This document shows positions 10,501-62,690 of a stretch of 64,000 bases of DNA, one piece after another. Under the pieces are notes generated by a model. That model was not told where the DNA came from, ran no database searches, and saw only the letters and a program-made list of their open reading frames with translations. The DNA lies in the NCBI RefSeq assembly GCF_932294415.1, contig NC_065539.1, positions 53,215,501 to 53,279,500 on the forward strand. Direction: 5' to 3'. The stretch is from Quercus robur (Eukaryota > Streptophyta > Magnoliopsida > Fagales > Fagaceae). Position 1 is the first letter of the stretch. Each line of letters starts with the position of its first letter. Both the position numbers and the translations under genes were made by a program.

Positions 10501-13500
10501 TTTATGTAATGATCAGTCAAGTTTTTCGTGCTTTGTTCATAAAGGATATATATTAATGCTACTTTACTTCTACATAGATGAAATCTTTTCGTTTCTTGAA
10601 TTTGAAATATATTTATGGGCTCATTGCAGTTATCCATCTTAAATAATCAGGCTATTTGCCATTTTGTGGCTGTTAGTTCTATGCTAGTTTTGTGGTGTCT
10701 GTATCATGTTACTGGTTTTTCCGTGTAGATTCAATTTTATGAGAGACTTTCACCTCTAGTTCCAATGAAGGTTCCTCTTGGGTCCTTCTCTAATATACAA
10801 ACAGGCGATTGCATTGTAACCTTTTCACGTCGTAATATATACAGGCTAAAGGTTAGTGATTACTGATCTTTTGTTTCTACTGCCATCATTACATTCTGTG
10901 CTTGTGTTTTCTTTCTTTTTAACCCCTTATGACATGGCTTCAATTATTTTTTCTTGAATCATTCTTTTTTCACTAAAATTTTCTTGTGATTATATGTTAG
11001 TGGTGAACATAAATCTGTCTAGCTATCTTATAATCTTTTCTTTTCCTTTCCTTTTTTGGTGTATTTAGATGAAATATATGTACTTGCTGGGAGAAAAAAA
11101 GGATGAACGCAAAAATGTATAAAATGACCATGCGCAAAAAAAGGTGCAAAATCATTTAAAAATTGGTTGCTATGTTGATTTGGGTCTTTTATCTTAATAA
11201 AGCAAATTTCCAAACCACGATAAGATCTATTATCTATGCTTATGATGATCACAGGCTTTCTGCTGTTACTTTTGGTCCACTGGATTTATTTTAGGTCTTA
11301 TTAGGTAATTAGGTTATTAGTATTTTATTTAATTCTCTAGAGTCAAGTATATTTGTAGTTCAATAATTAAGCTTTGGCCCAAGTTAATTGGGAATAGGGT
11401 TTAGTCCTAGTTAGTCTATATAAGTGTGCTACTATCCTCCAATGGAGACAAGTCTATGATTGATGAAATAAAATTTCGTTGGAATTTTTCAATGGCTTGG
11501 TGCTGACTCCAGGCTTTCCTGCTGACTCCTAGGTTTTATCTTTTTGTTCTTTTATTTCTTTCCTAGTTTTGACTTTTTGTTTAGCATCACTTTGCTAAGA
11601 TCTAGGCTCAATCAAGCTAAAATGTAGAATTACCTGGCATGAAATATTTTGTGTTACCTGGTTGAATGGAAACACTGGATTGTAAGTTTTTGAAATGCAA
11701 TCCTGAATTCTAATAGAGGACAACATGTTTTACGCATGGAAAAGGGTGTCTCAAAATAAGTTTGGAAGTTTAGAATAGGCTTTGGGCTAATATTGGTAAT
11801 GGGGCCTGGTTGAATGGAAACACTGGATTGTAAGTTTTTGAAATGCAATCCTGAATTCTGATAGAGGACCACATGTTTGAGGCATGGAAAAGGGTGTCTC
11901 AAAATAAGTTTGGAAGTTTTGAATAGGCTTTTGGGCCTTGAGAGGCTTGAATAATACACATCCTTTGGAAATGTATTTGGTGTGCTAAGGCTCTTAAAAG
12001 AGTTGCTTTCTTTGTGTGGACGGTAGCTTGGGGAAAGATTCTGAATTGTGACAATCTCATGTAGAGAGGAATCACTTTGGTAGACTCATGTTGCATGCAT
12101 TGTGGACTTTTGCCTTCTTGGTGTTTGGGGCTCAGTGGGTTATGCCAAGAAGTATTGTTCATCTTTTATCTAGATGGAGGAATTTGTTTGGTAAACACTC
12201 TTCTTTAGTTTGGAATCTAGTTCCCATATGCCTGTTGTGGACACTTTGGACAAAGAGGAATCATTGTGATTTTGAAGATGAGGAAGCCTTGTTGGTGAAA
12301 TTGAAATTGCTATTTATTCAATCAATTTTTCACTGGTCTAGTGATTTGTGTCTTAGTGATGCTCATTATATTGTAGATTTCATTGATTTGTTCTATTTTC
12401 AATTGTATTTCTCATTTCTCAATAATTTTTATGCTAACATCCTGTGTAAATGAGAGAGTTCCTTTGCCTTAATAAAATTTTATTATTAGAAAAAAAAAAG
12501 ATACTGGTCATGAGCAAAAGTAATAACAAGATCAAACTATGGTTTGTTTTGAATTGTAATTGACAATAGATATTGAGTTTCTATCTTCCAATGTATGTTT
12601 TTTCATAGAAGTAAGTTTCATACTTTATTAGCTTAGGAGAGGAGACTGGTTATATTGTGCAGCAGTGTAAGCTATTGATGTAATTAAACTGAGTATTCTC
12701 CCATGGCCTCTGCTTCAAGTTGTTTTAGGTCATCCTCCATTAGTCTTTTTATCAAAAGGCTTGTATTTTGGTATGTACCCGGAATCTGTGTCCAATGAAT
12801 GGACAAGGAGAAGATGCAGGTCCAAAGTAGTCGGAGTGGTGACTGGAGGAGCTCAGGCTGCTGGAAGAGATCAAGCCACCGAATTGGAAGAACTCTTTTA
12901 TTAACTCAAGAACTGAAGGGTCTTTTTCAATCAAACGTTCTTCTACTCATTAATGTTTATACTTCTGCTCTTTAGCTTTCTGAAGGAAGTATATGTATCT
13001 GGAAGAAAGAAAATGTACTTTCCAATATTTGTTGCTGTATACATACCATGTATTGAGTTTTATTCTTTGACATAAGGAGCTCCGTCTCCTTCCCTTTTCT
13101 TAGTTCTGTTTATGTTATGCAAAAGTGACATAATATAGGTTTGACTTAGTAAACTAACTAGTCAAACTGCATTTGTATCTTCTCCTCCACTGTAGAGGGA
13201 AATTGAAAATGGGGGAAAGCATCTTTGTTCTGTTGTTTATGGTTCGCTGCCACCAGAGACTCGAACTAGACAGGTATGCCTTCCTCTCCGTGTCTGAAAT
13301 CCTCTTCCTCAATTATACTTGATCTTAACTCATTGGAATAGATGTATACTATCAATTGAAGTCATTTATATGTTCTTTTCTTCTCTTTTCTTCCTTTTTC
13401 TGTTATACATTTCCATATAATTTTTTCCCTATAGTGAGTTATGTGTTTGCCATATATTAATAACAAAATTTATTTTCCGCCTCTCTCTAGCTCAAATGAC

Positions 13501-25433: not shown

Positions 25434-25439
25434 CTGATT

Positions 25440-25735
25440 TAAATCAATAAAAAGAAAAAGAAAAATGATTAATTGAATTAAACGAACCATTTAGAAAGAA
25501 TCTTTTAATTACTACCATTTTTTTAACATGAAGTTTATAATATCTGTATCTTTACTAAATATATATATTTTAGAACAAATTTACAATTTAAATCAATAAA
25601 ATGAAAAAGAAAACCAAATAATTCAATTAAACAGTCCATTTAGAAAGAATCTTTCAATTACTACCATTTTTTTAACAAGTTTATAATATCTGTATCTTTA
25701 CTAATTATATATTCAAGAACAAATTTATAATTTAT
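25440..25735. repeat. 149-bp tandem duplication upstream of the LOB exon
   Basis: The segment starting AAATCAATAAAA at 25440 recurs at 25589 (period 149). Both copies carry CATTTAGAAAGAATCTTT and TTATAATATCTGTATCTTTACTAA. The copy next to the coding exon supplies its presumed intron 3' end, so the other copy duplicates most of that intron end. Confidence 0.8.
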
Positions 25736-27220
25736 AATGCAGTATCGTTACTAACTTATCTTTACTAACTATATATCAAATTACTGACTAACAAAACAAT
25801 AAAAAGGAACAAACATAAAAATTACAAAAACTTTTATATCATTTATTATATTTTTATCTATTAAAATTTTCAACAAAAAAAAAAAACACATTTCTTCGAA
25901 GAACTATAATCTAAATTACTTTTGGAAATTTAAAAAGGTAAATTTCCATACTTGCTCTTTAAGTCTGATGACTCTTGATTATCTTCTTGTAGCTTTCCTT
26001 GATCTCTCAATAGGATTCTTGAAAGAAAATTACTTTTTTGAAAAAATATATTGAATTAACTCTGAGATACCGTTAGGCAACAGTAGCTTTATACTCATAA
26101 CATTAATCACACTTCCCTCCGACTTTTTTAATCCGTATTTGTACTAGATCGGTTCGATAAAGATAGTGGGCCGTGGCCCGTGAATGGAGGCGCAATTTTA
26201 AAGTTTTTAACACTAAGTGTAAATAGATATAAACCCATTGGGTATCTAATGAATACTCATTAGTCATTTATTCTAAAATTTAAAAGTTTAGGTTATGTTT
26301 GTTAATAGTTTTTGTTTTCTATTTTCAAAAACTTGTTTTTGGAAATATAAAAAATAAAAAAAATTCTTGTATTTTTGAAATTAAAAAAAAAAAAAAAAAC
26401 ATGTTTGGCTAGCTGAAATCAAAAAGATAGTTTTTTGAAGAAAAAAATAGAAAATACTAAAATATGTTGTGGGTTCTTATTTTGAACAATACCCAGGCCC
26501 AAGTAGAAACAAGGATCCTGAGCCTTATACTTGTTGTTTGGTGGACTGGGCTTGGTTCACTACAACTATATTGGGCTAATTATGAACCAAGCTGTACACA
26601 AAACATGGATTCTACAACACATACATACTCATACATGCAAATATATACATATTGTAAAGTAAAGAACAGTAAAGGAATAGTAAAGGTAAATAAAACGTTA
26701 GGGATCCTAAAAATGACGAATAATGCTTCATTATTTCTTGAGTTGCTAATACATTTTGTCTTTTTTGCACTAGGATATGTTACAAGGTCCAAATAAGTTC
26801 AAAAGTCATAGACTTAGATAGCTCCTTCGGGCTTCTAAGACTTGTGACGTTTGAATCCAAGTGTATCCTCTAGTGTCTATCTCAAGATCCTCCACGGAGT
26901 TTTCCCTCTTTTCTCCCTTTTTGAATTCTAAAGGAGTTTTTTAAAGGATCTTTTCTCTCTGATTCACTATTGCTGAATGGTTTTTTGCTATTAGCTCCTT
27001 CTCCTTTTATAGTGCTCTCCTAGTGTTTTTGGTGTACCACTACTTCCCTCCATTTGTTGCCCTGGGTACCAGAACCAATGTTATGTCAGTAATATTGATG
27101 GCTAGTCTCTTCCTTATTTTCTCATTATTTTCTCATTATTTTCCCTTTTGAGGTTCCCCCTCCAAAAGTCCCTAGCTAACCATCCTCTTTTGGGAGGTCC
27201 TAAGGGCTGACTTTCAATCC

Positions 27221-28040
27221 TCTTTTCCCAAAGCTTGTAGATACTACTTTTCAAATCCGCCTTTTGGCTACTTTACCTTTTGTCATTTTCTCTAAATGGA
27301 CAAATTCCTTTCTATCAGGCTGAAAGATCCCCAATCAACTTCCTTCATAGTCCATCTCCCTACTTTCCCCGAGGCACCAGGCTTCTTTTCATGAAGTGTT
27401 GATTCCTAAGTCATCTGTCTCTTTCTGCATCATTGGGCGGCTGATGGGACATATCCCTCCTTGTTCTTTGTGTTCATGGGCATGCTCCCTTGAGTTGTCT
27501 CAATCCCAACTAGTCTCTTATTGCATATCCCGAGGATCCCAGGTTTCTGGGAATTCCCAAGTATCTTGGTTTAGCTTTCTTTTTGAGTTCCCCAGCAATT
27601 TTCTCTCTTAAGGGCTGGGCTGAGCTTCCTCTTTTCCCAAAGCTTTTAGATACTACTTTTCAAACCCACCTTTTGGCTACTTTACCTTTTGTCATTTTCT
27701 CTAAATAAGCAGATTCCTCTCTATTAGGCTGAAAGATCCCCAACCAACTTCCTTCATAATCCATCTCCTTGTTTTCCCAGAGGCACCAAGCTTCTTTTCA
27801 TGAAGTGTTGATTCCTAAGTCATCTATCTCTTTTTGCATCATTGGGCGGCTGATGGGACATATCCATCCTTGTTCTTTGCGTTCATGGTCATGCTCCCTT
27901 GAGTTGTCTAAATCCCAGCTGGTCTCCTACTGCATATCCTGAGGATCCTAGGTTTCTGGGAAATCCCAGGTATCTTGATTTAGCTTTCTTTCTAAGTTCC
28001 TCAGCAATTTTCTCTCTTAAGGGTTGGGCTGAGCTTCCTT
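27221..28040. repeat. Two-copy tandem repeat, period 409 bp
   Basis: The phrase TCTTTTCCCAAAGCTT is at 27221 and again at 27630; AGGCTGAAAGATCCCCAA is at 27317 and 27726. Everything between is repeated with a few per cent difference, including a block with TTGGGCGGCTGATGGGACAT. The copies are 27221-27629 and 27630-about 28040. They lie upstream of the PMD pseudogene and probably belong to the same element. Confidence 0.9.
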
Positions 28041-28724
28041 TTTTCTTTGTTTCATAAGGCTCAAAGCTTACCCATTCATGGATTTGGGCCCCTTCCTACT
28101 TATTTTAAGTAGTCCTTAATTAGCGAGTTTGGGCCTTACCCCTTCCTTGAAAGCCCAAATGGTTCTCAAATTTCAATTTTGTATCATTTTGGACCTTGAT
28201 GCAATATTGTGATATTTTGGACCTCAGCATTTAGCCCTTTGAACTCGTGGGTTGCCTGCAGCCCACACGTGAGTAGACGAGATTCTTAGGTTTCGCAAGG
28301 ATCTGCAGTTGGTGTTTTTACCGCCTTCGGGATCCCTTCCCCTTTTTATTATGGAACCCTGTTCCGTTACGTTACCCTCTAATGTACTAACCCACGTATT
28401 CCACTCCTCTTGTAACTCCCCCCCTCTTTTCACGGAACGTGGCAATTAAGTGTCTGGGTAAACTTCCTCCTCCTCTTTGTACGTTTCCCATAACTCTCAT
28501 TAATAACTAACAATAACTTTTTTTGTAAAATTGAATTGTGGCAACTGGCGCGTTTTTCCATCTTCATTTTCTTCAACTTTTCTTTGCACCATTATTGTAG
28601 TCACTTCAAGCCATCTGTTCACTTTCAAAGATACTGTCCCAACTCATCTCCTCTCTTTCTGCTCCTTCCTTTGTTGCTTTCTCCCGTTCTAAACTCCCTT
28701 ACTCTTCTATTATACTATCCTTGT

Positions 28725-52449: not shown

Positions 52450-52735
52450 TAATGAGAAACTTTATTGAGACATAACATAATAAACACATGTATTACATAT
52501 AATATTGTGGCTTTCTGTCTATACAATAGATAACCTAGCTGTCCTAGGCAGGGATTGCCAAAGCTCTTGATTACTTGTGCCCCAATCTCTACGTGGCCCT
52601 CCAGACCATGAATCATCCCCTCTTATATGTATTGAGTGAACCATTACACATAGGCTATAGCATCACTTAATCACCAAGAGAAAACCCATAGCACAAATAC
52701 ATTCAAGCTGGAATAAAATTTAATTTAAATTTCAA
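52450..52735. repeat. Dispersed duplicate of 62415-62690
   Basis: The two intervals share long phrases: CTTTCTGTCTATACAATAGA, CCTAGGCAGGGATTGCC, AAGCTCTTGATTACTT, TGTGCCCCAATCTCTAC and CACCAAGAGAAAACCCATAG, in the same orientation, with small insertions and losses. The 62-kb copy lies just beyond the stop of the protein kinase. This copy has no kinase coding sequence beside it. Confidence 0.85.
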
Positions 52736-53489: not shown

Positions 53490-54496
53490 ATCAAAGGCAA
53501 ACACAGTAAAATATCAATTGAAAAGACTTGAGTTAACGGAGAAGAAGAAGAAATATTTAAGTAATATTTTTAATTTAAAAAAAAAAAAAAAAAAGCAATA
53601 AAATCACAACTTAACATAACAAAACAAAACCCTCATTTTTCCCTCCCACAAAGCAAAGCTGAAATTTCCAAATTGTTTTTGCAAACCCCAACCCCAGCTA
53701 GCAGAGAATGTGAGATCAAAAGTCAAATTTCTATTTCATAGTGGTGGTGTGGTTTTTCTTTAGCACTAAAAGGATTCCAATGGAACTTTTTCTTTTTCTT
53801 TTTTCCCTAAATGAAAAATTTTATTAGAAAAAAAGAATCTTAAACGACTCAAGCTTCTTCTACAATAACACTATCAGGGAGCTCTGAGAGTTTAAAGGAG
53901 CCAAAACTTGTTACATCAAAAAGCCCACTTAGCCAAACAATGGACAGCAAAATGAGTATGTCTTCTAACATTACTAGACTAATTGGAGATGGGAATATAG
54001 GATTGCTTGTTTGATACCATGACATGTTTTGATATTTTAAAGTCACAGTAAATTTAATCATTTGACTATTATTACATTATAGATAGGATTAAACAATTGA
54101 TGTGATTGATATCTGCACAGGTGTTGACTGTTGAGGAAGCTTGTGGAGGATGGATGCATCCAATGTTTCTGAATGACTAGAGCAATTCCAAACAGCATGG
54201 TTCCTCAATCTATTATTTATGTCCATGAAAGAAAGGTGCAAGTGGTATTGAGGCATTTACTTGTGAGGATGATTACATCATACAAGGGATACAGTTTGAA
54301 TTTGTTAAGGATACAGCTGTAGTTGTCAAGGATAGCAGCTAAGTCATATGCAGCTAGTGTTACTGATGTACCACAGCTGTAGTATTCAAAATACAAATCT
54401 TGGATTGTGTTGAGATAGGATTAGGATAGGATAGAATTGTATTTAATTTTGTATCCAAGTGATAAGGGAGAAGCATATCTGATTTGTATAGATGAG

Positions 54497-55271
54497 TCAA
54501 GGCCGAATTATATGGAGAAGCATATCTGATTGTGTATAGATGAGTCAACGCCGAATTGTATTTAAATTTTGAATCTGTAACAAACTCTGCTATATGTGAA
54601 ATTGCCTTGAACCGTGAATGGTAAGGCTTGGAAACAATTTCAATTATTGACCAGATGAAGTGCCATAATATCCTCCCTCTCTGAGCGTATTCTGGCTCAT
54701 GTGATCAAATTCAACACATCAAGGGATGTGTGGCAAGCCTTAGAGAGAATGTTTACCTCTCAATCAAGGGCTCGAACAATACAAATCCACTATCAGCTCG
54801 CCACTTTGAGGAAAGGCAATTCCTCAATTGCTGATTATTTTCACCAGTTTCCAACACTGGTTGATACGCTTGCTGCTACTGCTCATGCCTTGAATGATTT
54901 TGAAATCATCTCATTTCTTCTAGCTGGTCTGGGATCTGTATATGATTCCTTTGTTACATCTGTGACCATGAGAGTTGATCCTCTCTCCATTGATGAATTA
55001 TATGGGCATCTGTTAGCTCATATAATTCATCAATGGAGAGAGGATCAACTCTCGTGGTCACAGATGTAACAAAGGAATCACATTCAGATCCCAGACCAGC
55101 TAGAAGAAATGAGATGATTTCAAGGCCAAATTATATGGAGAAACATATCTGATTGTGTATAGATGAGTCAAGGCCGAATTGTATTTAAATTTTGAATCTG
55201 TAACAAACTCCGCTATATATGAAAATGCCTTGAACCGTGAATGGTAAGGCTTGGAAACAATTTCAATTATT
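54497..55271. repeat. 152-bp direct repeats around a 471-bp insert
   Basis: TCAAGGCC...CAATTATT at 54497-54648 recurs at 55120-55271 with six differences I can count in 152. Between them (54649-55119) lies a retrotransposon gag fragment followed by its own inverted copy. The left repeat is itself preceded by a partial tandem copy of its first 47 or so bases (from about 54450). The direct repeats do not begin TG and end CA, so they are not ordinary LTRs. Confidence 0.85.
54649..55069 (+). pseudogene. Copia-type gag fragment (UBN2-like), folded back on itself
   Basis: The frame from 54701 reads IQIHYQLATLRKGNSSIADY, FEIISFLLAGLGSVYDSFVT and VDPLSIDELYGHLLAH, the conserved middle of copia-type gag polyproteins. 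Translation upstream (SESILAHVIKFNTSRDVWQA) continues the match. At about 55005 the sequence turns round: 55019-55123 is the reverse complement of 54900-55004 with three mismatches and a 14-base loop. Only about 130 residues of gag remain, so it is a dead fragment. Confidence 0.8.
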
Positions 55272-55281
55272 TGTTTTTAAC

Positions 55282-55749
55282 AGAATTATGCCATCAACAA
55301 GAAATCAAACACTTCAAGGAGCCAAAAGAAGAATTCACACATTCACTAGTATTGGAAGAATTTGTGAAAATGGTTGGAGTAGTGATTATCCTTTGCCCTT
55401 GCCACCAACTTTTAGTTCTTTGGCTGAGGTCCAGGGTGGTTGTATATACTTCATGGCGAAGGATAAATATGGTTGTCGCTTCTTACGGAAGGTGTTTGAT
55501 GAGGGAACACGTCAAGATGTGGAAATCATATTTGACGAAATTATTGGTCACGTTGTTGAACTTATGATGGATCCATTTGGCAATTACCATGTGCAGAAGT
55601 TGTTAGATGTGTGCAATGAAGAACAGAGAATGCAGATTGTGCTCATGGTGACCAATGAGCCAGGAAAACTTGTCAGGATTTCTCTACACACGCATGGGAA
55701 AATTCTTCATATGTCACTAACTATATCTGTAATTTGTGTAGGGAATTGA
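55282..55749 (+). pseudogene. Truncated Pumilio (PUF) domain exon
   Basis: The segment follows a plausible intron acceptor (TTTTTAACAG). It encodes GCIYFMAKDKYGCRFLRKVF, FDEIIGHVVELMMDPFGNYH and VQKLLDVCNEEQRMQIVLMV, matching the first PUF repeats of plant APUM proteins. PUF repeats bind 3'UTR sequences base by base. Similarity stops abruptly after RISLHTHG and the frame ends at 55747-55749, so about two and a half of the usual eight repeats remain. In the first repeat the usual Gln of the CRxxQ recognition triple is Arg (CRFLR); the second keeps NYxxQ. No further PUF exons are seen before or after the nearby copia element. Confidence 0.7.
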
Positions 55750-56076
55750 TATTCTTTGCAATTTTGTCATTGTATTTCCTAGTAAAACTAATAGGTAAAG
55801 CACTGAAAGTCTGAAACAAAGCAATGTTGCCAAAGGAAAGAAGCAAAAGCAACCATCTTAGGCTCTGCAAAGGATTTGGAAAATCTATGGATTTAAATGG
55901 GTTGTAGTGTAAATGGAGAGAAATTGAATCAAAGATGAAGGAAAAGACCCACCAGAGGATAAGCATTAATGGCAATCTTTTGTATTCACTTATTCTATTT
56001 TCTGAAAAGACTTAAGTTGCTAAAACCCATGTCATGACTAGGAAGACATATTTACTGATGCAAGTCCTAATATTCC

Positions 56077-56230
56077 TGTTAGAAATACTGAATGATTGTA
56101 TTGTATTTCTCAAGTAATAGAATATACATAAGTGCCTTTATATAGGAGGCAGAGTGTGTAGTACAAGTAAGTGTGCTATACAAGTAAACAAGGCGGGCCT
56201 AAAGCCCATATACCCTAATACACGTTAACA
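56077..56230 (-). repeat. 3' LTR of the copia element
   Basis: 154 bp, TG at one end and CA at the other. It differs from the 5' LTR at four positions I can count. On the coding strand it contains CCTATATAAAGG, a TATA box for element transcription. Confidence 0.95.
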
Positions 56231-56243
56231 GCCCCCCTCAAAC

Positions 56244-59200
56244 TCAAGGTGGATGTGAGACCAACTTGAGGTTGTCAACCAAAGTGCGAAGACGTCCCTT
56301 AGGATGTGACTTGGTGAAGATATCTGCAAGTTGATCTTTAGAAGAAACTAAGATCAGCTTGAGAGCACCATGGACAAGATGATAGCGGATAAAATGACAA
56401 TCGATCTCGATGTGTTTAGTCCGTTCATGGAAGACATCATTGTGAGCAATATGAATGGCACTCTGGTTGTCACAATAAAGAGGAGTAGCAGAGGATGTGG
56501 ATACACCTAAGTCTTTGAGAAGCCACCGTAACCAAAGGAGCTCAGATGTGGTATCAGTAAGGGCACGATATTCTGCTTCAGTACTGGAGCGGGCCACATG
56601 AGTTTGTTTCTTGCTTCGCCAAGAAATCAGAGAAGAACCAAGAAGAAAGCAATAACCAGTGGTGGACCTGCGATCAGTGGGATCTCTTGCCCAATCAACA
56701 TCAGAAAATGCACGGAGTACAAGAGGTGACTGAGTAGAGTAGAAAAGACCATGGAAGAGAGTGCCCTTTAGGTATCGAAGAATGCGCAGAACAGCAGTAT
56801 AGTGAGTCGATCATGGAGCAGACAGATACTGACTCACCTAGTGAACAGCATAAGAAATGTCTGGACGAGTGATAGTGAGATAAACTAGGTTGCCAACTAA
56901 GCGTCTGTAAAGAGAGGGATTAGACAACGGTTTCCCCCCTGATGGAGTCAGATGCGCATTAAGCTCAACTGGAGTGTCAACAGTCTTGCTATCAGTGAGT
57001 CCAGCTCGAGACAAGAGTTCAGAGGCATACTTGGCTAGAGCAATATAAAGTTCATCTGTAGAATGAGTGATTTCAAGACCCAAGAAGTAACTGAGATGTC
57101 CAAGATCTTTTATCTCAAATTGCTGACTGAGAAAATCTTTGAGTTCTTGAATGCCACTGAGGTCATCACCAGTTATGATCATATCATCCACATACAAGAG
57201 AAGTAAAATAGTGCCTTTGTCAGTGCGACAAAGAAATAAGGCAGAATCATAATGACTGGCCATGTAACCTAAGCGAGAGATGGTAGAGCTGAATTTGGCA
57301 AACCAAGCTCGTGGAGCTTGTTTAAGGCCATAAAGAGCATGCCGAAGGTAACAAACCTTATTTGATTCAACAGAGAGACCAGGAGGAGATTGCATATAAA
57401 CTTCTTCACTTAAATCCCCATTAAGGAATGCATTTTTGACATCCATCTGAAAAAGGTCCCATTTTCTAGCAGCAGCAACAGCTAAGAGAGCTCGAACAGA
57501 TGAGATACGAGCAACCGGAGCAAATGTCTCTTCATAATCAATCCTATACTCCTGTGTAAAACCTTTTGCAACAAGACGAGTTTTGTAGCGCTCAATGGAC
57601 CCATCAGAGCAAGTCTTAATCTTGTAGATCCACTTACAACCAATCACAGATTTCCCAGGGGGGAGAGTCACCAAATCCCAAGTATGGTTTTTAGATAATG
57701 CATCAAGTTCCTCTTTCATTGCAATTTGCCATAAAGGGTCAGTGGAAGCCTCACGATAGGTGTGAGGCTCATGCAGTGTAGGAAGGGCAGTGTAACAATG
57801 ATAATCAAGTAAATGTGTAGGAATGGATCTTACCCGAGTTGAGTGACGAGGTGGAATGTCTTGTGCAAGATCTTCAGGCGGAGCAGGAGCAGGGGACCCA
57901 AGCTCAGGGTTGGGTAGCTCGTCTTCAACCTGTGCATCTTCCACCTGTTCATTAAAGAGTGAACTAGGAAAGGGATCAAAGGTATCTGGTGGTTGGATAG
58001 AGAAGTCTATAGGAGGATCAGGAGCAGTTACAGAAGGAATATGTGCCTCATCTGGAAAAAGATCTAAAACAGAGGAGGAAGATAGGAAGGCACGGAAGTG
58101 AGAGAGCTCGACAAAGGAGCGATGTTCCCAAAAGACAACATTGCGAGAGATACGAAGACGATGAGAGATAGGATCATAACACCGATACCCCTTTTGAGTT
58201 TCGCCATAGCCAAGAAAACAACAAAGCCTTGACCTAGGCTCAAGTTTGTTATGCTCATGTGGCTGAAGAAGAACGAAACAAGCAGAACCGAAGGAGCGAA
58301 GGTGGTGATAGTCTAGAGGTGACCCAAAAAGGCGCTCATATGGAGTTTGATTTTGAATAACAGGACTTGGAATGCGATTAATAGCATGAACAGCATGAAG
58401 GGCAGCTTCACCCCAAAAAGGAGCAGGAACTTTGGCAAAGAGAAGAAGAGCACGAACAGTGTCAAGAATATGACGAAGTTTTCGTTCGGCTCTACCATTT
58501 TGTTGAGAGGTACCTGGACAAGTTAGTTGATGAACAGTGCCATAGGAATGCAAAACAGCTTGGAAAGCATATTGAGTGTACTCAAAAGCATTATCAGATC
58601 GAAAAATTTTGATACGTTTGGAAAATTGAGTTTCAACCATTTTTGCAAAATTAGAATATACTTGCAATAACTCAGAACAATGTTTCATATTAAAAATCCA
58701 GCTATAGCGAGAGTAATCATCAACAAAGACAACAAAATATCAAGACCCACCAATACTAGAGACAGAGGAAGGACCCCAAACATCAGAATGAATAAGGTCA
58801 AAGATATCAGTGGATATTAATTCACTAGTATTGAAAGGCAAAGCTGGTTGTTTTCCTAACTGACATGAAACACAATCAAAATTTTCTGTAGACACTGAAC
58901 CTAACAAACCTCTAGAAGCCAATTGTTGTACACAAGAGGAAGATGTGTGACCAAGTCGAGTATGCCAAAGTGCAAGGGAAGGGGTAGAAGAAACTGCAGC
59001 AGCTGCAACAACAGAAACAGGAGCAACAAGTGGAAGACAAAGGTTGTCCACGGGAAACATACGCCCAACTCTGGGACCGGTCCCAAACTCCTGTCCCGTC
59101 CTTGGATCCTGCATAATACACCCAGAATAATCAAAGATAATGTGATAACCTAACTCAGCTAATTGTCCCACAGAAAATAAATTGTAAGAAAGGTCAAGAA

Positions 59201-59708
59201 CATTAAAGACACCAGGAATCGAGAGACTGGAGGTCGAAACGGAACCTATATTATGACCAGACATAGTGGAACCATTTGCTGTGTGAATATTAAGAGGGTG
59301 TGGTGCAGGTTTAAGTTCAGAAAATAAGGACGAGTGAGGAGTCATGTGATTGCAACAAGCAGAATCCATAAGCCAAGAGGAAGGAGACATACCAGATAAA
59401 GCTGAGAGAGAAGAGGAATAAGATGCATTACCAACCATACGAATGACATTGGCGATGATATTTTTAAGGTCATCTGTGGACATGGTGAAAGTGCGTTCTG
59501 AAGACTTAGACTGTGCAGAGACGGGAGCCATTGGTTGGACACTCTCAGTGTTAGCAACAGTAGCAGCGGAAATTGACACAGTTGATTTGTTGCAATGATA
59601 GCAAGTCTCAATATTGTGGCCAAAACGTTTGCAAAAACTGCAAAAACGTTTGCTGGATTGTTGGCGACGATTATTGCAACAAGAAGAAGACCTGTCCTTA
59701 TTTCTCAT
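56244..59708 (-). pseudogene. Copia polyprotein, one frame broken by three stops
   Basis: A single minus-strand frame of 1155 codons with stops at 58740-58742 (TGA), 56838-56840 (TAG) and 56811-56813 (TGA). Visible parts in order: a CCHC knuckle (CSFCKRFGHNIETCYHC); a protease motif with DSA in place of the usual DSG (WLMDSACCNHMT); the GAG-pre-integrase segment WHTRLGHTS; integrase with CPGTSQQNGRAERK; reverse transcriptase with YVDD near 57190; RNase H with DNQSAIHIAHN. There is no frameshift. The frame's first ATG directly follows a TAA, so the N-terminal gag region is missing. All three stops fit C-to-T changes in CGA or CAG codons. Confidence 0.93.
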
Positions 59709-60465
59709 TTAGAAGCACAATATGCAAAAATGGACTGCAAAAATGAAATCTACGCGAAAAACTGGATAAGGAGCACCTGGACTGCAAAAAGTCAACTCTG
59801 GTCAAAAGTCAATGGTCAACCTGGTCAGAGTCAACAGGATGACGTTAGCAGGCTGACAGGGGATGACGTCAACAGATGATGAAGCGCTGAAGCAAGCAGG
59901 TGACGTCAGCTAGGGCTGACGTAACAGAGATGACGTCAGAGATGATGTCAGCAAATAAGCCAGTGGCGCGTGCAGCGCGTGAGGCGCGTGGACCAGCTTC
60001 GCCGAAGATTCTGTCAGCGCGTGAGAGCGCATGACCTGTCCAATGATGCAGTTTCTTCTCCGATGATGTAGATCGGAGAAAGACGATTCTTATGGTGTCG
60101 GCGGCAACAAGATCGGAGATACCCTGGTGGCGCGTGAGGCGCGTGGATCAACTCCGCAGAAACTTTGACCGGTGCGTGGATGGTCAGATGTGGATGTTTC
60201 TGGTGGCGGTGTGTAGATCGATTGAATATCTACACGATGATAGGTCTTATGTCCTAATCGGAGGTCAGAGGTGACAAATCCGATGATGGCAGTGGTTTTG
60301 GCGGTGAGGAAGAGCTTCTGGCGATGGAGATTCAACCCTGAGGACCTCTAACTGCGGCGGAGCAGTTGGGGGATGGCACTGAAAGGGTTTATTGACCGCA
60401 GAAGATGAGGCAGCGGAAAATACCGACAAAATAAGACTGCAAGACACAAGAAAATTAGAGCAATG
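59709..60465 (-). promoter_or_regulatory. GC-rich copia leader with TGACGTCA cluster
   Basis: The space between primer-binding site and coding frame, where gag should start, has no gag similarity. It is GC- and CpG-rich, unlike the rest of the window. Between 59838 and 59955 TGACGT occurs five times, three of them as the full palindrome TGACGTCA, the site of TGA-type bZIP factors. GGCGCGTGAGGCGCGTGGA-like units occur twice (about 59970 and 60130). Regulatory function is inference. Confidence 0.5.
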
Positions 60466-60477
60466 GCTCTGATACCA

Positions 60478-60631
60478 TGTTAGAAATACTAAATGATTGT
60501 ATTGTATTTCTCAAGTAATAGAATATACATAAGTGCCTTTATATAGGAGGCAGAGTGTGTAGTACAAGTAAGTGTGCTATACAAGTAAACAAGGTGGGCC
60601 TAAAGCCCACATACCCTAATACAAGTTAACA
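60478..60631 (-). repeat. 5' LTR of the copia element
   Basis: 154 bp, identical to the 3' LTR except for four substitutions, two of which are C/T differences on the plus strand, one A/G and one C/A. It carries the same TATATAA promoter box on the minus strand. Confidence 0.95.
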
Positions 60632-61681: not shown

Positions 61682-62315
61682 GAATACAGTACTAGTGGAA
61701 TGAAATTTTTTTGGGTGAGTATAAACTAAAAATAAATAAATAGTGTCCCCATCCAAGGTTTTCGAATTACATGTATTTTCTATTAAACATGGATGTCTTT
61801 ATTAAACTACATGTATTTTTTATCAATTATATGGACACCCAAGAGAAAGGAATTGAACATGGATGTCTTTATTGAAAATACCAAGAAGCACCATTAGATT
61901 TTGATTTAATTTTTATTTATAGAAAATTGATTTTGTTTCTAGTACTGCAATGTGATGTTCAAAATAAGAAAAAAGTGAAATTTTCCCACTTAATTTTATT
62001 TGGAATACAGTGGTCGAATGAGATTTTTTTAGGTGAGTATAAACTAAAAATAAATAAATAGTGTCTTTGCCCAAGGTTTTTTTGTATTGCATGTACTTTT
62101 TATTAAACATGGACGTCTTTATTAACTACATGTATTTTCTATCAATTATATGGACACCTAGGAGAGAGGAACTAAACGTGGAAGTTTTTATTGGAAACCC
62201 TAAGAGGCACCACTAAATTTTGATTTAATTTTGATTTATAGAAAATTGAATTTGTTTCTAGTACTGCAATGTGAGGCTCAAAATAAGAAAAAAGTGAAAT
62301 TTTCATACTTGATTT
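61682..62315. repeat. 318-bp tandem duplication
   Basis: GTGAGTATAAACTAAAAATA is at 61715 and again at 62033. Both units run through ATCAATTATATGGACACC and TTCTAGTACTGCAATGTGA to AAGAAAAAAGTGAAATTTTC. Differences are scattered substitutions and small gaps. No coding capacity is seen. Confidence 0.9.
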
Positions 62316-62414
62316 TATTTGATTGAGGCATCAGAGAATGTGAGACTCCAAAACAAAACTACGTTTCTAATATGTATAATGTACTGTATAACATAAGCAA
62401 ATGTAAAAACTAAA

Positions 62415-62690
62415 AACCCAACTTTTATTATATTACATATAATATTGTCCCTTTCTGTCTATACAATAGACAACCTAAATTTCCTAGGCAGGGATTGCCT
62501 AAGCTCTTGATTACTTCCAAGTTCCAACATGTGCCCCAATCTCTACCTCGACCTCCAGACCATTAATCATCCTCTCTTACAAGTATTGAGTGACAACCAT
62601 TACATGCTATAGCATGACTCTTCAATCACCAAGAGAAAACCCATAGCACAAACACATTCAAGTTGTAAAATAATTTAATTTAAATTTCAA
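62415..62690. repeat. Duplicate of 52450-52735, probable kinase 3'UTR or flank
   Basis: It shares about 270 bp with the interval near 52.5 kb. On the minus strand it lies 150-430 bases after the kinase stop codon and ends at an AATAAA (62424-62429), so it may be the end of the kinase transcript. Confidence 0.7.

Follow-up and report, generated by a model that had tools for sequence, protein, structure and literature searches.

A dead copia relic in an oak Pumilio copy, with a gag hairpin that probably records snap-back repair

By what route does a piece of a copia gag gene come to be followed by its own reverse complement between two direct repeats? The question is posed by a locus in a 64,000-nucleotide (nt) stretch of Quercus robur (contig C6, 53215501-53279500), the whole of which is hereafter called the window. 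Repeat finding within the window gave direct repeats at 54497-54648 and 55120-55271 (152 nt, 96% alike, 6 differences), enclosing inverted arms at 54900-55007 and 55016-55123 (108 nt, 96% complementary; BLAST of the window against itself, E 1e-93). The locus is a dead 980-base Ty1/copia relic at 54303-55282, lying in a copy of a Pumilio gene, and its interior was probably rebuilt after insertion by template-switching repair with snap-back synthesis.

The hairpin is far beyond chance: folded as RNA it reaches -194.7 kcal/mol (z -28), and none of 200 shuffles was equally good. Pfam assigns the gag piece to Retrotran_gag_2 (E 4.1e-19). The copied stretch proper is 55022-55123, the reverse complement of 54900-55001, with 3 mismatches in 102 nt and no indel. 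The original prediction for this DNA, made from the letters alone, was thus right about the 152-base-pair (bp) direct repeats, the copia gag piece and the inverted arms with three mismatches; in place of its 14-base loop, a loop of 8 bases on a 6-bp stem (one G-T pair) already present in gag gives the better description, and its limits of 54497-55271 give way to 54303-55282.

The insertion and its limits

The own genome (785.7 Mb, 42 contigs) was searched with 54497-55271, giving 66 matches; scoring covered 40 of the 51 first-look candidates, and counts from this search are therefore lower bounds. Among the candidates scored, only the window's own place matched the full query. The repeat and gag co-occur in other elements, for example on contig C5, with a long terminal repeat (LTR) at 46219682, gag at 46220125 and a second LTR at 46225272. 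In the pieces fetched, homology begins at 54302-54306 in most full-LTR loci and, for the 3' copy, extends to 55278-55290; in the relatives L009 and L011 the last LTR letters are TCA or ACA, and the primer-binding site TGGTATCA comes directly after them. On the strength of these homology limits, the TG...CA ends (last letters ...AACA) and the target duplication, the element ends were set at 54303 and 55282. Both LTRs are truncated on the inner side, and given that the solo LTR of the nearest kind measures 357 nt, the 5' LTR has lost 11 nt from its end and the 3' LTR 194 nt from its start (Table 1).

The original prediction took the direct repeats not to be LTRs, which is refuted by several observations: they are the part common to the two truncated LTRs, relatives carry the same sequence as an LTR directly 5' of TGGTATCA, GAATT is duplicated around the element, and a paralogous site is empty. 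Among nine relatives, TGGTATCA was found in five and a one-base variant in three, with none of the eight primer-site words sought in L012. At the locus the primer-binding site is deleted, none following the 5' LTR; pol is absent between the LTRs, where there is no room for it, and only the gag fragment (Retrotran_gag_2) is left. The locus is a relic and not an intact element.

The probability of a 5-bp match between the flanks by chance is 0.0014. When the flanks were joined with one target copy kept, they aligned uninterrupted through the site with a Pumilio paralogue on contig C41, which holds a single GAGTT there; a search with the right flank found the same paralogue at 92% over query positions 1-61 and 90% over 64-485. 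This empty site is a paralogue and not an allele. Two truncated LTRs of one insertion, a target duplication and an empty paralogous site are therefore read directly from the DNA. A Foldback or miniature inverted-repeat transposon was ruled out, the arms being internal and the target duplication flanking the LTRs instead; patch-mediated tandem duplication of the target was likewise rejected, the repeat being absent from the empty site and being an LTR. As to the host gene itself, the Pumilio copies (window 55283-55767 against C41:7067515-7068053) differ by a 50-bp gap further on, and Pfam found two PUF stretches in the one window open reading frame (ORF) scanned.

Table 1. Features of the relic and its flanks (window positions)
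Feature	Position	Strand	Basis or remark
5' part of Pumilio (PUF) gene copy, interrupted by the element	54171..54302	+	87% to C41 paralogue, which continues straight into the 55283 side
Target-site duplication GAATT, left copy	54298..54302	+	identical on both flanks
5' LTR, 346 nt, begins TGTTAAGG, without last 11 nt	54303..54648	+	LTR homology in relatives; solo LTR length
48-bp tandem unit within LTR, subfamily trait predating the insertion	54467..54561	+	two units in L019-L023, one in L024 and L009-L011
copia gag fragment, 373 nt, from another subfamily	54649..55021	+	Pfam; closer to L013-L018 gag
Left arm, taken as snap-back template	54900..55001	+	arm comparison
ATGGGC, 5' half of native fold-back stem	55002..55007	+	present in native gags
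8-nt loop ATCTGTTA	55008..55015	+	folding
GCTCAT, 3' half of native stem and last native gag bases	55016..55021	+	present in native gags
Right arm, 102-nt reverse-complement copy of 54900-55001	55022..55123	-	carries private state 54970 G
TCAA overlap, join of copied arm and 3' LTR	55120..55123	+	fits both sides
3' LTR, last 163 nt, ending ...TTTTTAACA, without first 194 nt	55120..55282	+	LTR homology in relatives
Target-site duplication GAATT, right copy	55283..55287	+	identical on both flanks
Rest of Pumilio copy, PUF repeats	55283..55767	+	Pfam PUF E 7.6e-25; 90-92% to C41 paralogue

A chimeric interior and its junctions

The element is a chimera, as its gag sides with a different copia subfamily from its LTRs. 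Over 373 nt, the gag is 90-93% identical to L013-L018 and 78-81% to L009, L011 and L012. In aligned columns, the 5' LTR is 85-88% identical to L009-L012 and L032, 91.6% to the solo LTR L019 and to L024, and 74-75% to L013/L014, the corresponding values for the shorter 3' LTR being 79-83%, 90-92% and 72-75%. Bootstrapping over sites (500 replicates each) placed the gag nearer L013/L014 than L009/L011/L012 in all six comparisons (reverse support 0.0) and gave the LTR the opposite affinity in six of six (0.998-1.0), a one-sided outcome in 12 of 12. Eight other gag copies lie at 89% or above, and none has an LTR of the window subfamily in the upstream DNA fetched: L013 and L014 carry an LTR 74-80% like that of the window, L015-L018 have a primer-type site, the sequence 5' of which does not match the window LTR (save 47 nt of L018), and L030 and L031 show no match to it. 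In the last two, homology to the gag piece is confined to its first 236 nt, and their low matrix values are not true identities; both entered the majority counts given below.

Three junctions bound the interior. At the first (J1, 54648/54649), the LTR would continue with T, the base preceding native gag is A in nine of nine, and the window reads T then G, so that no base is shared; a 5-nt gag deletion relative to all nine native gags follows at 54658/54659, 10 nt past the junction. The second (J2) lies just after 55021, where native gags continue ATGA(A/G) in nine of nine and the window begins to read 55001-54900 in reverse complement. The alignment reaches 55021 exactly in six of the nine, and the turn is made at a stem, ATGGGC/GCTCAT (6 bp, one G-T, 8-nt loop), which lies within native gag codons and has both halves native in five of nine gags. 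At the third (J3, 55120-55123), the letters TCAA can be assigned to the copied arm as well as to the 3' LTR.

The arms themselves were compared with the relatives. Two of their differences arose on the left, at 54939 (nine of nine relatives against it) and 54969 (eight of nine, L017 having it too), and one on the right, at the partner of 54942, which nine of nine relatives lack, L015 having T. Both arms carry G at 54970, where all 11 aligned relatives (nine of them homologous there) have A, and of the 11 sites at which an arm departs from the majority, eight are common to both. From this private G, the one private site, and the shared departures it follows that the arms derive from one piece and not from two gags. 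Like the foreign gag and the switch points, which are placed nearly to the base, this common origin is directly established. The left arm may be taken as the original, since it belongs to the longer gag run.

Origin of the hairpin

The events can be ordered into one proposal. A break inside the element would have cost it the leader, pol, the greater part of gag and a portion of each LTR. From its 3' end at 54648 the top strand would then have been extended by 373 nt, with gag of the other subfamily as template. On reaching 55021 the growing strand would have left that template, folded on its own ATGGGC/GCTCAT stem and copied back 102 nt, after which the TTTCAA end of the copy would have joined the surviving 3' LTR at TCAA. 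One top strand growing from left to right would thus account for LTR, foreign gag, snap-back and 3' LTR alike, and we infer that the hairpin is a repair scar. Repair of a break after insertion is favoured because the primer site and the LTR end were lost and because J1 lacks homology. Parallels exist for the individual steps: Pol theta was reported to extend, in vitro, 3' ends held in a stem-loop by only two terminal pairs (PMC11292364), and fold-back insertions of 2 to about 150 bp were described at yeast breaks, made by Pol delta with end joining (PMC11724301). The original prediction had already proposed copied filler with a template switch making the hairpin, and this idea gains from the switch point, the pre-existing primer stem, the private substitution in both arms and the TCAA junction.

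Several observations pull the other way. The missing microhomology at J1 also counts against templated repair of this form. Of 343 possible 3' ends, nine offer an equally good stem if loops are limited to 10 nt and 40 do so if wide loops are allowed, making the turn favourable and not unique. Homology at J3 beyond TCAA is matched by 23 of 20000 random 12-mers, but by 15 of the 168 ending in TCAA, and the longer homology therefore adds nothing. In the yeast study the insertions were mostly below 14 bp, placing 102 nt at the long end (PMC11724301). Finally, at sites that distinguish L014 from L015, the window mostly agrees with L014 to the left of 54900 (12/16) and with L015 to its right (15/21); a mirror order, in which the bottom strand grows from right to left, would need a switch at 54900 and would do as well if this shift in affinity were a real switch. 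The shift seems better explained by private L015 changes (9 of those 12) together with the diverged right part of L013/L014, whose gag is 93-95% identical to that of L015-L018 left of 54900 and 77-83% right of it. The L013/L014 elements may themselves be recombinants.

A different timing should also be given consideration. Before integration, reverse transcriptase might have switched between co-packaged RNAs of two copia subfamilies and primed itself on the stem, a defective complementary DNA (cDNA) with intact outer ends then being integrated. The intact outer LTR ends and target duplication, the mixture of two subfamilies and the similar divergence of LTRs and arms (6/152 against 3/105, Fisher p 0.74, no difference) all suit such a cDNA. 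Loss of the primer site and LTR end and a homology-free junction are unlike ordinary strand transfer, however, and no second copy of the rearranged interior was found in the search scoring 40 of 51 candidates; we consider this origin unlikely.

Nested elements are common in plants, and an element of the gag-donor subfamily inserted into the LTR element, followed by large deletions and one fold-back that left a gag piece, would explain the chimera without long ectopic copying. The 471-nt interior consists fully of gag and its copy, however, with no donor LTR, leader or pol between the LTRs, and two or more large deletions would have to end in the same piece, which makes the nested course improbable. 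The first suggestion was a staggered break that duplicated a stretch in tandem, filler DNA separating the two copies. It accounts for direct repeats boxing an insert, and tandem duplications of this kind are known (PMC8355091), but the repeats belong as LTRs to a single insertion, around which 5 bp of target are duplicated, and the empty paralogous site is without any repeat, leaving that mechanism with hardly any credit.

Fold-back chimeras arise in sequencing, and a palindromic assembly or read artefact is scarcely credible here: the arms differ by three substitutions without an indel (two left-derived, one right-derived), and the LTR pair by three changes per side, one of these sites being covered by two relatives only and another having one relative in disagreement. 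At assumed rates of 6.5e-9 or 2.5e-9 substitutions per site and year, the LTR pair would be about 3.1 or 8.1 million years old and the arms about 2.2 or 5.8. The divergence of arms and LTRs resembles normal ageing and so argues against an artefact; that of the arms gives no sign of selection or constraint on the hairpin, at low power.

Silencing, an Rfam model and known systems

Could the relic work as a silencing locus? Transcription from the 5' LTR might yield about 100 bp of double-stranded RNA, to be diced and to act on gag of the donor subfamily, a role compatible with snap-back repair as the origin. The fold energy of -194.7 kcal/mol and an upstream 5' LTR with the word TATTTAA at 54440 and 54559 favour it, and of 82 right-arm 21-mers, 5 match L015 gag exactly, 49 within one mismatch and 79 within two. 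Among the nine fetched gags, however, L015 is the only one with exact matches (within two mismatches, 36-43 of 82 in L016-L018 and 1-18 of 82 in the other five), and the arms diverge like LTRs. A working locus is accordingly doubtful; any silencing would be a by-product of an LTR promoter reading through the hairpin. Bolder still is the notion that a dead copia became, by one accident of template switching, a self-sufficient natural RNA-interference cassette, with the LTR promoter of one subfamily, a hairpin against the gag of a competing one and an LTR terminator behind, which appears improbable. Hairpins from rearranged elements have been discussed as silencing triggers, and the same source describes gag small interfering RNAs (siRNAs) as dispensable for transcriptional silencing of EVD (PMC11624286). 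No Rfam microRNA model reached its cut-off in a scan that covers known families (best, MIR5038, 48.3 bits against 70).

A further Rfam match concerns the model snoZ247 (RF00321), which is probably built on copia gag coding sequence. It matches the left arm (window 54887-55022) at 48.4 bits, above its cut-off of 38, and the right arm weakly on the other strand (30.3 bits). Two of six frames are open in its printed consensus, one sense and one antisense, and the sense frame, in register with the window gag, is 43% identical and 68% similar to it over 44 residues (E 3e-9). The open frame by itself is weak evidence, as 51% of shuffled consensuses have one; Pfam gave the consensus a weak copia gag match at the corresponding profile end (E 0.15), and the excess of third-position mismatches was not significant (p 0.08). 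Eight of the 11 copia pieces fetched (L009 and L012-L018) match the model over its whole length in the sense direction of gag (E 0.1 or better), four of them passing the cut-off; L011, L030 and L031 do not match in this way, the last two lacking that part of gag. Plant non-coding RNA annotations that use RF00321 may therefore be wrong. In one reed transcriptome snoZ247 was called 'heavily annotated' (PMC10077656), an abundance that retrotransposon transcripts would fit if the model is indeed copia gag.

Elsewhere in the window, a neighbouring copia occupies 56077-60631 on the minus strand, with 154-bp LTRs 97.4% alike and long integrase and reverse transcriptase frames over three ORFs; on its gag side, Pfam found nothing in the one ORF scanned (59869-60147). 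Two-copy tandem duplications (periods 148-409 bp, 87-95% matches) lie at 11657-11936, 25437-25734, 27218-28045 and 61698-62321, and a dispersed direct repeat, 83% alike, at 52491-52735 and 62431-62690, 10 kb apart. Some window frames encode what we take to be PPR-like proteins. In the wider genome, the solo LTR of L019-L024 is followed by the same TATAT-beginning flank at six places (contigs C41, C40, C5, C5, C2 and C2; L019 via L033), and it has apparently multiplied together with its surroundings.

Set beside known systems, the locus shares with deleted Ty1/copia copies (truncated and solo LTR relics) the TG...CA LTR, the 5-bp target duplication, copia gag and relatives with TGGTATCA, and differs in that gag from another subfamily, together with a fold-back of 102 nt, makes up the rebuilt interior. 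A practical caution follows, in that what the eye takes for plain direct repeats can be truncated LTRs. In maize, Mu killer (Muk) is an inverted duplication that silences MuDR (cited in PMC11624286); like it, the oak locus is an inverted duplication of part of a transposon with a potential hairpin RNA against relatives, but it holds gag instead of a transposase gene, spans 102 nt only, and its silencing is hypothetical. In the inverted-duplication model of plant microRNA birth (PMC3237417), as described there, an inverted copy of a target gene likewise forms a young hairpin, from which the locus differs in having no Rfam microRNA model at cut-off. It does offer one concrete route by which inverted gag copies, the raw material of hairpin siRNAs or young microRNAs, may be born inside an LTR-flanked unit.

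The closest likeness is to fold-back insertions as portrayed in yeast (PMC11724301) and for Pol theta in vitro (PMC11292364), in which a 3' end pairs back at a short inverted microhomology, is extended along its own strand and joins the other end with few or no shared bases. Here too, the copy begins at a short inverted repeat by the turn and stems from the same molecule (one private site, 8 of 11 departures shared), although the oak case captured a mobile-element template, is read from an old scar and, at 102 nt, exceeds most of the insertions in that one yeast study. Template-switch hairpins (PMC8794818) offer a last parallel, in that one switch is described as making a perfect stem that later decays by substitutions, the oak stem being longer and part of a multi-step repair patch. 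With donor subfamily, fold stem, switch points and empty site all readable, the locus would be an unusually clean snap-back fossil.
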